DNA of 64,000 nt from Oscillospiraceae bacterium (GTDB taxonomy: Bacteria > Bacillota > Clostridia > Oscillospirales > Oscillospiraceae). Positions 47,490 through 53,689 of this stretch are shown here, piece by piece. Under the pieces are notes generated by a model. It saw nothing but the letters and a program-made list of their open reading frames with translations, was not told the DNA's origin and made no database searches. The DNA lies in NCBI GenBank assembly GCA_021203045.1, contig JAJQBY010000122.1:27419-91418 (forward strand), in the 5' to 3' direction. The first letter of the stretch is position 1; each line of letters opens with the position of its first letter. The position numbers were made by a program, and so were the translations under genes.

Positions 47490-47570
47490 CCGGATAAAAT
47501 AGCATAACGGCCCGCCCCCGCAAAATGGATTAACAGAGGGGGCGGGCATCGTATATAATAAATCCACACG

Positions 47571-47713
47571 AATCGAAGCGTTTGCGGACGTAACCGCAGA
47601 ACGCCGGACAAGCTGTCGAAGGGGAAGATCTGCCGGAGGGTCCGCGGACGTATCCGAGGCCAGAGGAAGGCAACGTCTCTCCGCCTCCGGCTCTTGTCCG
47701 GCGCTTTATTTTT
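47571..47713 (+). ncRNA. Candidate structured leader RNA / riboswitch upstream of MATE gene
   Basis: CGCCGGACAAG (47602-47612) pairs with CTTGTCCGGCG (47693-47703); nested GCCGGAGG/CCTCCGGC; two hairpins with GG-ACGTA(A/T)-CC; T-rich run after the long stem. Confidence 0.7.
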
Positions 47714-47728
47714 CAGGAGGACCTACCT

Positions 47729-49048
47729 ATGGAGCTATTGACTGACGATATTCGGCGGCTTTACCGAAAATTCCTGCTGCCCGGCCTGGGCGGGGCCCTG
47801 GTGATGACCATATACAGCTTTGTGGATTCCATCGCCGTGGGCCAGGCGGAGGGCCCTGTGGGGGCGGCGGCCATGGCGGTGATCGGCCCGCTGTTCGGCG
47901 TGAGCGTGTTTCTGGCCATCATGTGCGGCGTGGGCGGCTCTGTTCTGATGAGCGAGGCCAGGGGCCAGGGGGACTGGGACAAGGGAGACACTTACTTTAC
48001 CTCCTCCGTGCTGCTCATGGGAATACTCACACTGGTCTCCTGGCTGGCTCTGCTCCTATTCGGAGAGTCCGTCATGGCCTTTTTCGGCGCAGAGGGGGAG
48101 GCTCTGACCATGGTGATGAAGTACGCCCGGTGGCTCATCGGCTTCTGGCCGGCCATCATCTTCCCCATCTTCCTGGGCGCCTTCATCCGCAATGACGGAG
48201 CCCCCGGTCTGGCCACCGGGGCCGTGATCGCCGGCGGCGTGCTGAATATGTTCGGGGACTGGTTTCTGGTGTTCTTCCTGGGCCTTGGCATCCGGGGCGC
48301 GGCCATGGCCACAGTGGCCGGCACGATCATGCAGTCTGCGGTCATGATCTCCTATCTTTTCCGCAGGTCCTGCCGCCTGCGGCTGCGCCGCCCCCGCAAT
48401 TCGGGAAAGGCCATGGGACAGATTCTGTCCATCGGCTTCGGAGCCGGAGTGCTGGATCTGGGCACCGTGTTCATCGGGGTCGTCACCAACAATCAGCTGA
48501 TGAAATACGGCGGCGCGGCGGCGCTGGCAGTCTATGGAGTGCTGACCACCGTCACATCCCTGTTCCAATCCCTGTTCGGCGGGGTGGGGCAGGCCATCCA
48601 GCCTATCGCCTCCACCAACTTTGGCGCAGGGCAGACAGAGCGGATAGGACGGCTGCTCCGCCTGTCCCTGACCACCGTGCTGGGGATGGGCGCAGCCTTC
48701 GTCCTGATCGGGGAGCTGTTTCCTGCCGGACTTACGCGGCTGTTTATGTCTGCCTCGGAGGAGGTGCTGGCCATCGCGCCGGGGCTGGTGCGGCGGTATT
48801 TTCTGGTGTTCCTGCCTCTGGGGGTCACGGTGCTGGCCACCTATTATCTCCAGTCCATCCTGCGGTTCCGGATGTCCATGGCCGTATCGGTGTTGCGCAG
48901 CTTCGCCCTCAGCGGCCTGATGCTGTGGCTGCTGCCCATGGCCCTGGGAACAAACGGCGTCATGCTGGCCCTCCCCGTCTCGGAAATCCTGACCGCCACC
49001 GTCGCCGCCCTCTGCATCCGCCACAGCGGGGTCCGGTTCGTTGAGTGA
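47729..49048 (+). CDS. MATE family efflux transporter
   Basis: 12-TM-like profile; FVDSIAVGQAEGPVGAAAMAVIGP; FGGVGQAIQPIASTNFGAGQ. Confidence 0.92.
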   Translation: MELLTDDIRRLYRKFLLPGLGGALVMTIYSFVDSIAVGQAEGPVGAAAMAVIGPLFGVSVFLAIMCGVGGSVLMSEARGQGDWDKGDTYFTSSVLLMGILTLVSWLALLLFGESVMAFFGAEGEALTMVMKYARWLIGFWPAIIFPIFLGAFIRNDGAPGLATGAVIAGGVLNMFGDWFLVFFLGLGIRGAAMATVAGTIMQSAVMISYLFRRSCRLRLRRPRNSGKAMGQILSIGFGAGVLDLGTVFIGVVTNNQLMKYGGAAALAVYGVLTTVTSLFQSLFGGVGQAIQPIASTNFGAGQTERIGRLLRLSLTTVLGMGAAFVLIGELFPAGLTRLFMSASEEVLAIAPGLVRRYFLVFLPLGVTVLATYYLQSILRFRMSMAVSVLRSFALSGLMLWLLPMALGTNGVMLALPVSEILTATVAALCIRHSGVRFVE

Positions 49049-49280: not shown

Positions 49281-51287
49281 TCACGCAGTGGGGAAATCCT
49301 CACCGGGATAGTTCTCGGCCATCCAATCGCCGTAGTCCATAGCTCCGATCACGGAGTTGATATCGGAGAAGGGAGCGATGTAGGGGCTGGCAGCGGCATA
49401 GATGTCGTCGGGGATGCCGCTCTGAGAGGCCATGAAGCTGTCAGCCTGAGCGATCTCCGCCACATACTCACGATACTCGTCGAAGTGGGGATAGGCGCTC
49501 TCGTCCAGGCCTTCGTTCATGCTCTCATCAAAGCCGGCGGGGGTGTCGCCTGCGGCTTCGTCGGCAGCGGCCTCGGTCTCAGCCTCGGCCTCGGCAGTCT
49601 CAGCGGGAGCGATAACGATGTCGCCCTCCCAGGTGCCGCCGGCGGACACGTCCACTTCCTCGCCGTCCACGGTGACGGTGCCGTTCACGACGCCGCCCTC
49701 AGCCACGGTCAGGACGCTGATGTTGGACTCGCCGGTGACGTTCCAGACAGAGGTCTCGTCCACGGTGACGGTGGAGATGGTGCCGGTGCCGTCGAAGTAG
49801 GTCTCGGAATCCAGGATCCAGTAGCAATACTCGTCGGCCATGGCCTCCTCAGACCACATGGCGTCCCACTGGTCCTTGTCGATGGTGACGAAGGCGCCGG
49901 ACCAGGTGGAGTTGACCAGGTTCACGGTGGCGTTGCGCTGATAGTCATAGCTGTCCACATCGCCGGAGATGTCGCTGTCGGTGATGGTCAGGTCGGTGCC
50001 CTTGCCGGTCATATCATCGGAGGCCAGGGCGTAGCGGCTCATGGAGTCGGAGTTCAGAGCGGTCAGCAGCAGAACGCCGGTGTAGCTCTCGGCGGTGACG
50101 TTGGTCAGGTCGATGTCAGCGCTGGTGGACTTCACCAGGATGTTTGCGCCCTTGACCAGCTGGATGTACTCCGCCACGGCGGGGCCGTAATCCACGTCCC
50201 AATCGGTCAGGGTGGCGTTCTCGTCCAGCTCGGTGCTGGTGATGATATCGGTGTCCTCCAGATCAAGGATAGCGGTGTAATCAGAGCTTGCGCCGCTGCC
50301 CATCATGTCGGGGGAGTGGAGCTGGAAGTCGTTGCGTCCGGCCTCCACCAGGGAGCGGCCGTCGCCATAGTTTTCGGTCACCTCATAGTCCTCCGGCAGA
50401 TAGGCCAGGACGTCCTCGTCCGCAGCCGCGCCGTTGCGCATATGAATTTCGCCGTTGTTGGAGATGATGGCGCCCACCTCGGCGCTGGTCAGGGTGCTGG
50501 CATAGAACCAGTCCACGCAGGAGGTATCGGCATAGGTGCCGTAGCCGCCGTACAGGGCCGCAGCGGTGGAATCATAGCTGTAGAAGGTGAAGCCGCTCTG
50601 GGCGGAGTCGGTGCTCATGGCGGCCCAGCCCTCGGTCTCCACATAGGAGCCGTAATAGTAGGTCTGGGACTGGCCCACGGACATGTTGGCCCGGGCATAG
50701 CCGGAAATCAGCAGGCCCAGGTTGGAGGGGGGATCGGCGATGTCATCGGTATAGCCCTCCTCGTCGCCGGTGGCGCCGGTCTGGATGATGCTGGAGTTGA
50801 TGACCACCATCACGCCGGTGGACTCGCAGTCAACGGTATAGTTGCCGTTGCGGCCGCCCTTGCCGTTGTTGACGAAGGTGCAGTTTTCGATGATCAGGGT
50901 GCCGCTGGTGACGCCGGCAATGTAGCCGCCGGCCGCGTCCTCATCCACATCCTCCGTCACCTCTTTGGTGATGGTGGAGTTGGAGATGGTGAACGTGCCG
51001 CCGGTCACCTGGAAGCCGTTGGTGGTGAAGGAGGTGATGGTCATCTCAATGCCATCGGCTCCCTCGTCCGTGACCTCGCCGGTGATCTCAACGCCCTCGA
51101 CCTCGTTTGCGGTGACGCCGTCCTCGGTGATGGTGTAGGCAGTGCCGGTGGCAGCCGCATCCGCATTCATGGACAGGGCCGTCTCATCAGAGGCCTCCCC
51201 GGACGCCTCGCTGGTGGCGAACGCGCCCACACTCAGCAGCAGGCACAGGGCCAGCGCCAGGGCAAGGATTTTGCTCAGTTTCTTCAT
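49281..51287 (-). CDS. Secreted acidic beta-helix-like protein with SEASGEAS N-terminal linker
   Basis: Signal peptide MKKLSKILALALALCLLLSVGAFA; SVWNVTGESNISVLTVAEGGVVNGTVTVDGEEVDVSAGGTWEGDIVI; C-term PHFDEYREY. RBS abuts the glgP stop. Confidence 0.85.
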   Translation of the reverse strand: MKKLSKILALALALCLLLSVGAFATSEASGEASDETALSMNADAAATGTAYTITEDGVTANEVEGVEITGEVTDEGADGIEMTITSFTTNGFQVTGGTFTISNSTITKEVTEDVDEDAAGGYIAGVTSGTLIIENCTFVNNGKGGRNGNYTVDCESTGVMVVINSSIIQTGATGDEEGYTDDIADPPSNLGLLISGYARANMSVGQSQTYYYGSYVETEGWAAMSTDSAQSGFTFYSYDSTAAALYGGYGTYADTSCVDWFYASTLTSAEVGAIISNNGEIHMRNGAAADEDVLAYLPEDYEVTENYGDGRSLVEAGRNDFQLHSPDMMGSGASSDYTAILDLEDTDIITSTELDENATLTDWDVDYGPAVAEYIQLVKGANILVKSTSADIDLTNVTAESYTGVLLLTALNSDSMSRYALASDDMTGKGTDLTITDSDISGDVDSYDYQRNATVNLVNSTWSGAFVTIDKDQWDAMWSEEAMADEYCYWILDSETYFDGTGTISTVTVDETSVWNVTGESNISVLTVAEGGVVNGTVTVDGEEVDVSAGGTWEGDIVIAPAETAEAEAETEAAADEAAGDTPAGFDESMNEGLDESAYPHFDEYREYVAEIAQADSFMASQSGIPDDIYAAASPYIAPFSDINSVIGAMDYGDWMAENYPGEDFPTA

Positions 51288-51298
51288 GTGTTCTCCTT

Positions 51299-53689
51299 TC
51301 ATATTTGCCAGATATTTCCGGCATATTCTTGAATCGCGCGGTCGGCGGCAAAGGAGCCGGATTCCGCGATATTCACAAGGGATACCCGGGCGGCTGCCCG
51401 GGGGTCGGCCAACAGGCTGTACAGCCTGTCGTGGGCCTGGCGGTAGCTGGGGAAGTCGGCCAGGAGCATATAGGGGTCGCCGCCATAGAGCAGGCCGGCC
51501 ACAAGGTCTGAATAGCTTTTCCCGTCCGCGAAGCCGGTGCTGAAGCGATCAAGCACCGCCTTCGTCACCGGGTCATTGTCATAATAGTCGTGGGGCCGGT
51601 AGCCGGGGCGCAGGGCCTCCACCTCCTCCGCATGCAGGCCGAACAGGAACATATTCTCATCCCCCAGCAGGCGGTGCATCTCCACATTGGCTCCGTCCAG
51701 GGTGCCGATGGTGATGGCTCCGTTCATCATGAGCTTCATATTGCCGGTGCCGCTGGCCTCCTTGCCGGCGGTGGATATCTGCTCCGAAACCTGGGCCGCG
51801 GGCATCAGCTTCTCCGCCATGGACACCCGGTAGTTGGCGGCGAAGAATACCTGGAGCTTCCCATCACAAACCGGGTCTGCATTTATATCCGCGGACAGGG
51901 AATTCAACAGCTCTATGATCCGCTTCGCGGTCACATAGCTCCCAGCGGCCTTGGCCCCAAAGACAAAGGTGCGGGGCAGGAAGTCCATGTCAGGGTCGTC
52001 ATGGAGCCGCTGCTGAAGACTGGTGATGAGCATGGCCGCCAAAAGCTGCCGCTTATATTCATGCAGGCGCTTGACCTGCACATCCAGCACCGCGCCGGGG
52101 TCGGGCGACACTCCCTGCTGCCTTTCGAGCCAGCGGGAGAAGGACTGCTTGTTCTGATATTTTATCTCGTTCAGCCGGTCAAGGACGGCGGTGTCGTTTT
52201 CATACTTATGGAGCATGCGCAGCTCCTCGGGGTTTGTGATGAACCCGGGACCGATCAGCTCCCGCACAAGGCCGGCCAGGGCCGGATTTATCTGATCCAG
52301 CCAGCGCCGGTGGTCGATGCCGTCGGTGACGAAGGTATACCGCTCAGGCCGGAGGCTGCACACGTCTGCGAACAGGCGGCTGGTCAGTATCTGTCCATGA
52401 AGCGTGGACACGCCGTTTATCTTGAAGCACACGGCCTGGCAGAGGTTCGCCATATGCACCTGTCCACCGGACAGAATCAGGCACCGCTCCACCCGGGCCT
52501 CGTCCCCGGCGAATTTCTCCCGGAGATAGGCGCTCCAGCGCAGATTCAGCTCCCGAATCACCTGCCATACCCGGGGCAGAAGGGACTGCACCAGGCCCTG
52601 AGGCCACTTTTCCAGCGCCTCGGACATGACGGTGTGGTTCGTATAGGCCACGCTGCCCTCCACGGCAGTCAGAGCCTCGTCCCAGCCCAGGCCGTCCCCA
52701 TCCATGAAAATACGCATCAGCTCCGGGATGATCAGGGCCGGGTGGGTATCGTTTATCTGCAAAACGTGGTGCTCCGGGAAGGAGCGCACGTCTCCCCAGG
52801 CGGCCCGGTGCTTCTTTACGATATCCTGGGCTGTGGCGGAGACGAAGAAATACTGCTGCTTCAGGCGCAGCTCCTTACCCTGAAGATGGTCGTCCGCCGG
52901 ATAGAGCACCTTGGTGATGACCTCCGTCATGGTGCGCTCCTCCATGGCCTGCATATATTGCCCGCCGGAAAAGAGATACATATCCAGCTTCTGGGGGCTT
53001 CGGGCCTCCCAGAGCCGCAGGGTGTTCACCCGGTTCCCGCCGTATCCGGCGATCAGCATATCACGGGGCACGGCCAGCACGCTGGTATACCCGGTCTGCC
53101 GGGTATGGCAGGTGCCGGTATAATCCCATTCCTCCTCCACATGGCCGCCGAAGCGCACCTCGCAGGTGTCCTCCTCCCGGGGGACCAGCCAGCCCTGGGC
53201 GCCCAGACGCCAGTCGTCCGCCTCCTCGGTCTGGCAGCCGTTTTCCATCACCTGGCGGAAAAGGCCCAGCTCATAGCACAGAGAGTAGCCTGTGGCCGGG
53301 ATATCCAGGGTAGCCATGCTGTCCATATAGCAGGCAGCCAGACGGCCCAGGCCGCCGTTTCCAAGGCCCGCGTCCGGTTCCGTCTCGAATATATCGGCAG
53401 CGCTGCGGCCCATCTCCTCCAGCGCCTGGGTCAGAGCCTCTCCCAGCCCCAGGTTATAGGCATTTTTCATCAGGCTCCGGCCCAGCAGGAACTCCAGGGA
53501 CAGATAATGGACCTGCCGCTGCTCCCGCTCCGGCTGGGCGGCCAGGGTGCGGCTCATGATCTCCCGTATGACCATGGCCGACGCCTGGAAAACCTGGCCG
53601 TCCGTGGCCTGCCGGCCTGTAACGCCGAAATGGGCGCATAGCTTATCCTCGATTGCAGCGTGCAGCTCGCTGCCCGTGATTTCTGCCAT
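51299..53689 (-). CDS. glgP: Glycogen/starch/alpha-glucan phosphorylase
   Basis: LGNGGLGRLAACYMDSMATL; PLP site EASGTGNMKLMMNGA; VKRLHEYKRQLL. Confidence 0.95.
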   Translation of the reverse strand: MAEITGSELHAAIEDKLCAHFGVTGRQATDGQVFQASAMVIREIMSRTLAAQPEREQRQVHYLSLEFLLGRSLMKNAYNLGLGEALTQALEEMGRSAADIFETEPDAGLGNGGLGRLAACYMDSMATLDIPATGYSLCYELGLFRQVMENGCQTEEADDWRLGAQGWLVPREEDTCEVRFGGHVEEEWDYTGTCHTRQTGYTSVLAVPRDMLIAGYGGNRVNTLRLWEARSPQKLDMYLFSGGQYMQAMEERTMTEVITKVLYPADDHLQGKELRLKQQYFFVSATAQDIVKKHRAAWGDVRSFPEHHVLQINDTHPALIIPELMRIFMDGDGLGWDEALTAVEGSVAYTNHTVMSEALEKWPQGLVQSLLPRVWQVIRELNLRWSAYLREKFAGDEARVERCLILSGGQVHMANLCQAVCFKINGVSTLHGQILTSRLFADVCSLRPERYTFVTDGIDHRRWLDQINPALAGLVRELIGPGFITNPEELRMLHKYENDTAVLDRLNEIKYQNKQSFSRWLERQQGVSPDPGAVLDVQVKRLHEYKRQLLAAMLITSLQQRLHDDPDMDFLPRTFVFGAKAAGSYVTAKRIIELLNSLSADINADPVCDGKLQVFFAANYRVSMAEKLMPAAQVSEQISTAGKEASGTGNMKLMMNGAITIGTLDGANVEMHRLLGDENMFLFGLHAEEVEALRPGYRPHDYYDNDPVTKAVLDRFSTGFADGKSYSDLVAGLLYGGDPYMLLADFPSYRQAHDRLYSLLADPRAAARVSLVNIAESGSFAADRAIQEYAGNIWQI

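Follow-up and report, generated by a model that had tools for sequence, protein, structure and literature searches.

The RNA leader of about 160 nt that stands before a MATE-family exporter gene in the window (the whole 64,000-nt stretch of Oscillospiraceae DNA analysed here) probably belongs, as a diverged tandem member, to a class of riboswitch-like RNAs, widespread and uncatalogued, that would control exporter genes by terminating transcription. The conservation of this class, its covariation, its linkage to exporters, the duplication of its module and the overlap of that module with a terminator are established by computation. A structured, terminator-bearing, riboswitch-like MATE leader had been proposed in an earlier note made from the letters of the window, and family conservation and covariation bear that proposal out.

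The leader and its surroundings

The leader, like each of its features described below, lies on the forward (+) strand; it is promoter-driven and has an intrinsic terminator at its end, just 5' of the exporter gene. Its promoter (47530..47559) consists of TTAACA, an 18-bp spacer and TATAAT, a match to the consensus at 11 of 12 positions, and the congener equivalent is TTGACA/TATAAT. From the promoter position, transcription is expected to start near 47566. Since a good promoter thus lies between asnS and the leader, the leader is an independent 5' UTR. At the other end are the terminator 3' arm (47693-47703) with its U tract (47705-47713), together 47693..47713, an AGGAGG ribosome-binding site (47715..47720) and the gene that would be regulated, a MATE-family exporter of 439 aa (47729..49048; Pfam MatE, 4.3e-29). 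In a consensus scan of the leader, the long loop kept the terminator from being recognised as a textbook one; its arms and U tract are nevertheless conserved across the leader family.

Two neighbouring features deserve mention in their own right. Between asnS and the leader, at 47510-47547, there is a perfect 10-bp inverted repeat, GCCCGCCCCC/GGGGGCGGGC, with the -35 box of the leader promoter in its loop and no T tract behind it; it may be a terminator for asnS or serve the leader promoter as an operator. Beyond the MATE gene, before a glycogen phosphorylase gene, an ORF of 673 aa on the opposite strand (49281-51302, -) has a signal-like start and a repetitive sequence, and no Pfam match was found for it.

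Base by base, the fold described in the earlier note holds up well. The 11-bp stem 47602-47612/47693-47703 is present exactly as claimed, the T-rich tract at the leader end is found at 47705-47713, and the two near-identical hairpins carry the hexaloops ACGUAA (47588-47593) and ACGUAU (47648-47653). For the segment 47571-47728 the minimum free energy is -65.5 kcal/mol (z = -1.98), with 8 of 200 shuffled sequences folding as well, and the leader of a same-genus homologue gives z = -4.1. Fold energy alone is thus modest evidence for the window, and the real evidence is that of conservation and covariation. A long-range pairing of 47578-47589 with 47640-47651, predicted for a partial window transcript, was discarded because it is missing from the congener fold. 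The leaders were also read by eye for a conserved upstream ORF, and no consistent start codon was seen.

A family of exporter leaders

A covariance model built from two leaders, that of the window and that of one congener (R1), was searched over 394 genomes of the order and matched L010 (E = 1.9e-9) and L011 (6.7e-8; per-genome E values), in both of which the leader ends a few tens of bases 5' of a MATE gene. A model from four sequences (R2) matched L013, L014 and L016-L021, again 5' of MATE genes. Two further matches to these models, L012 and L022, were poor, showed no leader-like sequence and were rejected as false.

The core of the family is UCAUC-GGAG-[P1]-GGAUAA-GAUG, of which the window keeps part: a stem P0 (CAUC/GAUG), an internal loop GGAG/GGAUAA and a hairpin P1. 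The 3' strand of this core, GGAUAAGA, is at the same time the terminator 5' arm and can pair with UCUUAUCC to form the terminator instead. A scan for the core pattern, covering 84,980 species, gave at least 120 loci, of which about 6 would be expected by chance (a rough estimate); L095 and L126 look like such chance or aberrant matches. Among the matches listed, the Bacillota are represented by Clostridium, Faecalibacterium, Butyrivibrio, Oribacterium, Holdemania, Acidaminococcus and Lapidilactobacillus, the Bacteroidota by Bacteroides, Paraprevotella, Odoribacter, Alistipes and Muribaculaceae, and the Spirochaetota by Treponema and Brachyspira; metagenome bins named Elusimicrobiales and Lentisphaeria also occur. 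Since the pattern itself fixes P0, GGAG and GGAUAA in these loci, the variation of all three is known from the model-found members only. By eye, some of the latter have another P0, such as UGC-U-C with G-GCA in L176 and L021. L176, L177, L178, L180, L182 and L021 form a subtype in which P0 is GCUC or GCGC with GGCN, likely bulged, around the same GGAG/GGAUAA loop.

The linkage to exporters is close. A MATE gene lies within 3 kb on the same strand in 105 of the 120 listed loci, and in 104 of these 105 it is within 400 bases. The other 15 listed loci, which have no MATE call, include 6 with too little sequence to judge and four that lie 5' of other exporters, of the MFS (L108, L117) or ABC (L112, L130) type. 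A third model (R3), built from single-aptamer members only, was searched over 291 genomes of the class with no gene or pattern filter, and all 10 of its matches head MATE genes or operons, judging from the translated genes. At L140 and L181 the leader and the MATE gene are separated by a cytidylate-kinase-like gene (in L140 a Pfam Cytidylate_kin2 match), a hint that the exporter has a co-regulated partner. No earlier description of the leader family was found, by gene, motif name or sequence string, in the open-access papers searched.

The covariation check across homologous leaders, suggested in the earlier note, gave a strong result. In the R3 alignment of 100 distinct sequences, which leans toward its model, 82.9% of pair cells are standard, compared with 73.3 +/- 0.7 when partners are shuffled; there are 158 two-sided changes against 61 in shuffled alignments, and structures slid along the alignment are at most 49.5% paired. 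P1 covaries strongly: in a structure-free scan of the ungapped 29-nt P1 regions, five nested P1 pairs rank among the first ten, with terminator and P2 pairs coming up as well. The terminator 3' arm, which is free of any constraint from the pattern, is complementary at 10 or more of 13 pairs in 116 of the 120 listed members, and a U run follows it in 101 of the 120.

The loops of P1 and P2 appear to kiss, judging from their complementarity, which averages 3.56 and compares with a shuffled mean of 2.03 and a maximum of 2.95 in 300 shuffles. The paired loop sequences are CGCA/UGCG in ten cases, with CGGU/ACCG, CGUA/UGCG and CAUA/UGUG also found. The expression platform is more variable at three loci, L112, L130 and L181, where the terminator is formed from GAUG or from the 3' half of P2 and not from GGAUAAGA, while the aptamer is the same. 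These alternative platforms would fit an aptamer that excludes termination in every case.

The tandem form and the state of the window copy

A second module lies inside the terminator in 16 of the 116 accepted pattern members listed (about one in seven copies), and the tandem form is found also in L010, L011, L013, L016, L018, L175, the window and the same-genus G015. In the nested module a pairing P0' encloses GGAG, a hairpin and then GGAUAA, or a variant of it. Over 20 nested copies the P0' pairing has a mean of 4.30, compared with 2.56 (maximum 3.60) in shuffled sequences, a value that is biased upward because the boundaries were chosen by pairing. R3, which had no tandem member in its training set, also matches nested copies, namely those of L036 (2e-5), L011 (0.001), L016 and L035 (both 0.007) and L072 (0.008). 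Tandem riboswitches likewise have two copies of one module per leader, the difference being that in this family the terminator hairpin of the first copy encloses the second.

Each of the 20 nested second loops examined carries CGUA. Among first loops it is present in 15 of the 16 tandem pattern matches, compared with 8 of 100 single members (Fisher p = 2.6e-12, which is inexact as the sequences are related). These counts agree with the suggestion of the earlier note that the repeated loop is functionally meaningful, and a nested second aptamer with CGUA in both loops explains the duplicated ACGUA hairpins it had noticed. The conserved part of the duplicated hairpin is CGUA, the longer GCGGACGUA identity being peculiar to the window lineage.

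R3 matched neither module of the window, so that the membership of the window rests on the R1/R2 chain to L010 and L011. These models join the window to L010 (E = 5e-11) and L011 (2e-9), in 76 kb, and R3 in turn places L010 and L011 in the exporter-leader family. The window also has the family's terminator overlapping the aptamer 3' strand and an exporter gene downstream. On this sequence evidence, the window leader is best read as a diverged, derived tandem member of the family.

Its first aptamer is not intact, reading AAUC-GAAG ... GGACAA-GCUG against the family CAUC-GGAG ... GGAUAA-GAUG. The eroded 5' strand, AAUCGAAG (47571..47578), aligns with family CAUCGGAG, has no R3 match and differs even from the congener leader, which is otherwise 95% identical; the two congeners read AUCGAAGCG and AUUUAGGCU here. 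It is followed by the P1 hairpin (47578..47604), whose loop ACGUAA (47588-47593) has the CGUA kept in tandem members, and by the terminator 5' arm CGCCGGACAAGCUG (47602..47615), the equivalent of family GCCGGAUAAGAUG, which is the aptamer 1 3' strand.

The second aptamer is kept, as UGCC-GGAG-[ACGUAU hairpin]-AGAGGAA-GGCA. In the best fold the P0' 5' strand UGCC (47631..47634) pairs with 47669-47672; P0', which pairs more than shuffled sequences do across the 20 nested copies, is perfect in the congener (AUUUGCC/GGCAAAU) and only 4 bp in the window. The 5' strand of the internal loop is GGAG (47635..47638), as in 18 of the 20 nested copies listed, and the P1' hairpin (47639..47661) carries the loop ACGUAU (47648-47653). 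The 3' strand, AGAGGAA (47662..47668), replaces what is mostly GGAUAA in the family, and its AGARGA form is common to L010 (AGAGGA) and Faecalibacterium prausnitzii L034 (AGAAGA). Both window loops contain ACGU, which is self-complementary, and could therefore kiss with 4 bp.

The nested 8-bp stem described in the earlier note involves this same region and survives in part. The complementarity of 47632-47639 with 47684-47691 (GCCGGAGG/CCUCCGGC, spanning 47632..47691) is present, but the pairing is outside the best fold and costs about 7 kcal/mol if forced. It is found in the window and the congener and is missing from more distant homologues, where the apical part folds instead as a second aptamer with its own stem. 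A possible role for this alternative pairing is that of a lineage-specific switch hiding the GGAG of aptamer 2.

The leader is single-copy in its own genome and was found in one other genome among 60 relatives, with 90% identity. A MATE orthologue is present in 6 of 35 congeneric genomes (87-90% identity), five of them with upstream sequence; two of the five (the window and G015) keep the leader, and in the other three no leader RNA is present and the promoter is a plain TTGACA/TATAAT one. Conservation upstream of orthologous MATE genes, a check that the earlier note asked for, is thus patchy within the genus; in other genera and families, homologous leaders stand before MATE genes. The leader has been gained or lost within the genus, and the MATE gene does not need it. 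The three leaderless orthologues (L004, L005 and L007; 87-90% identical) amount to a natural comparison, inside one genus, of the gene with and without its leader.

Could the window copy then be a relic, a constitutive partial terminator 5' of the MATE gene left behind as aptamer 1 eroded? The loss of P0 and GGAG from aptamer 1, the sharp difference of its 5' segment between two congeners, the expression of the MATE orthologue from a plain promoter in three related genomes and the want of an R3 match all point that way. Against this, outside the 5' segment the leaders of the two species are about 95% identical, both CGUA loops and the nested aptamer included, and P0' is perfect in the congener, even if reduced in the window. 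We regard the relic as doubtful, though as a serious alternative and the strongest of those considered.

Proposed mechanism and comparison with known RNAs

In the mechanism we propose, the aptamer module would be made up of the stem P0, the asymmetric purine internal loop GGAG/GGAUAA and the hairpin P1, with its 3' strand GGAUAAGAUG doubling as the intrinsic terminator 5' arm. Without ligand, the terminator would form and the exporter would be off. A ligand on the GGAG/GGAUAA loop would steady P0 and the contact between the loops of P1 and the next hairpin, the terminator could not close, and the exporter would be on. We infer both ligand binding and this ON direction, the latter because the same strand cannot be in the aptamer and the terminator at once. 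Tandem members have their second module within the terminator, and there both loops in contact would contribute CGUA. For the window, where aptamer 1 is without P0 and GGAG, we infer that the loops ACGUAA and ACGUAU kiss and that the copy continues to switch, sensing being left to the nested aptamer 2 and this loop contact.

A conserved RNA-binding antiterminator protein, and not a metabolite, might instead act on the GGAG/GGAUAA module. A conserved internal loop joined to a terminator is also typical of antiterminator targets, and tandem modules recall the target sites of ANTAR proteins and PyrR. However, the leaders occur in several phyla and no regulator gene was noticed beside those of the family, which makes a protein-controlled attenuator improbable. 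An ANTAR target in particular was rejected: ANTAR hexaloops need A1 and G4, a rule that ACGUAA and ACGUAU break, and the loops of most family members are different again.

As to what might be sensed, the internal loop resembles that of an artificial RNA. The FMN aptamer selected in vitro has an AGGAUAU/AGAAGG internal loop, and so shares with the family a purine internal loop in which a GGAUA strand faces a GRAG strand. One strand position and one closing pair differ, and the window has AGAGGAA in place of GGAUAA. MATE proteins include the flavin exporter YeeO, homologues of which have been reported in Bacteroidaceae (PMC12934955). By analogy, a planar ligand, perhaps a flavin, is a weak lead.

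Few bacterial MATE exporters have a known natural substrate, and a conserved RNA sensor would report what the pumps are for: with such an RNA before hundreds of MATE genes, the ligand is presumably what the pump has to expel. Gut Clostridia and Bacteroidales commonly carry the family, which offers a direct, ligand-screenable handle. We put at about even the chance that it is a phylum-spanning riboswitch class that serves the multidrug exporters of gut bacteria and responds to some toxic compound, perhaps a planar aromatic one (a flavin or a flavin breakdown product being one lead), with a tandem subgroup and, in the window, a nested aptamer that took over after the first had decayed. As a regulatory architecture the nested tandem form is unusual, and in the window such a switch can be seen decaying or being rewired.

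Known classes were considered in the earlier note, which named the Na+/Li+ riboswitches and the mepA motif (guanidine-IV). Neither assignment is upheld. Searches against Rfam 15 (Na+, Li+, guanidine-I/II/III, yjdF and others), run at gathering and at relaxed thresholds, gave no relevant match to any family, either in the window or, at a relaxed E value, in 24 homologous loci. Guanidine-II (mini-ykkC) resembles the leader in having two similar hairpins with ACG in loops able to kiss. Its simple stems are capped by ACGR tetraloops and lack a GGAG/GGAUAA internal loop. It was rejected: the window loops are hexaloops, ACGUAA and ACGUAU, those of other members are CGCA, CGGU or unrelated, and RF01068 is not matched.

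Guanidine-IV is apparently missing from Rfam 15, and the comparison with it is one by eye, of published positions with the loops. That the leader belongs to this class (mepA, GGAM-1) or to its Gd4v variant would be suggested by a similar logic, in which two hairpins have kissing loops, the second lies in an intrinsic terminator, and MATE genes are among the targets (PMC7736828, PMC9788692, PMC12186494); transcription control is of the ON type in those RNAs, as proposed here. The conserved sequences are different. In guanidine-IV as published, the second loop is G-U-x4-G, the kissing pairs are C30-G71 and A29-U72, there are no conserved ACG trimers, and the terminator stem is part of the binding structure. 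The family has P0 and GGAG/GGAUAA, and an aptamer strand that serves as the terminator 5' arm (GGAUAAGAUG), in which its conservation is strongest, unlike guanidine-IV. The architecture thus differs, the P2 loops do not have the guanidine-IV spacing, and the signature G66 U67 ... G72 (Lactococcus lactis numbering) with A-C/G-U kissing was found in none of the 120 listed members.

Gene context tells the same way. SMR/sugE and transaminase genes dominate guanidine-IV and Gd4v, with sugE/SMR the most frequent for guanidine-IV, whereas the family is linked to MATE and rarely to MFS or ABC genes; no SMR/sugE or transaminase gene was identified 3' of the leaders among the matches listed, and the R3 set likewise has no identified SMR gene. 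Gd4v combines a guanidine-IV-like core with transaminase or GNAT genes; the core here differs and no such genes were identified. Three leaders 5' of SMR genes (L149, L151 and L161), with UAGGCC loops and terminators, are guanidine-IV look-alikes that also have no Rfam 15 match, so that absence from Rfam alone does not prove novelty. They share nothing visible with the leader family and are not matched by R3. Membership of guanidine-IV or Gd4v is thus very unlikely. Least probable of all is that the element senses nothing and is just an ordinary long hairpin or an inverted repeat of the DNA, a reading that would suit the window's z of only -1.98 but is already contradicted for the family by the compensatory changes in P1 and P0', the sequence-conserved unpaired loops and the exporter-only gene linkage across phyla.
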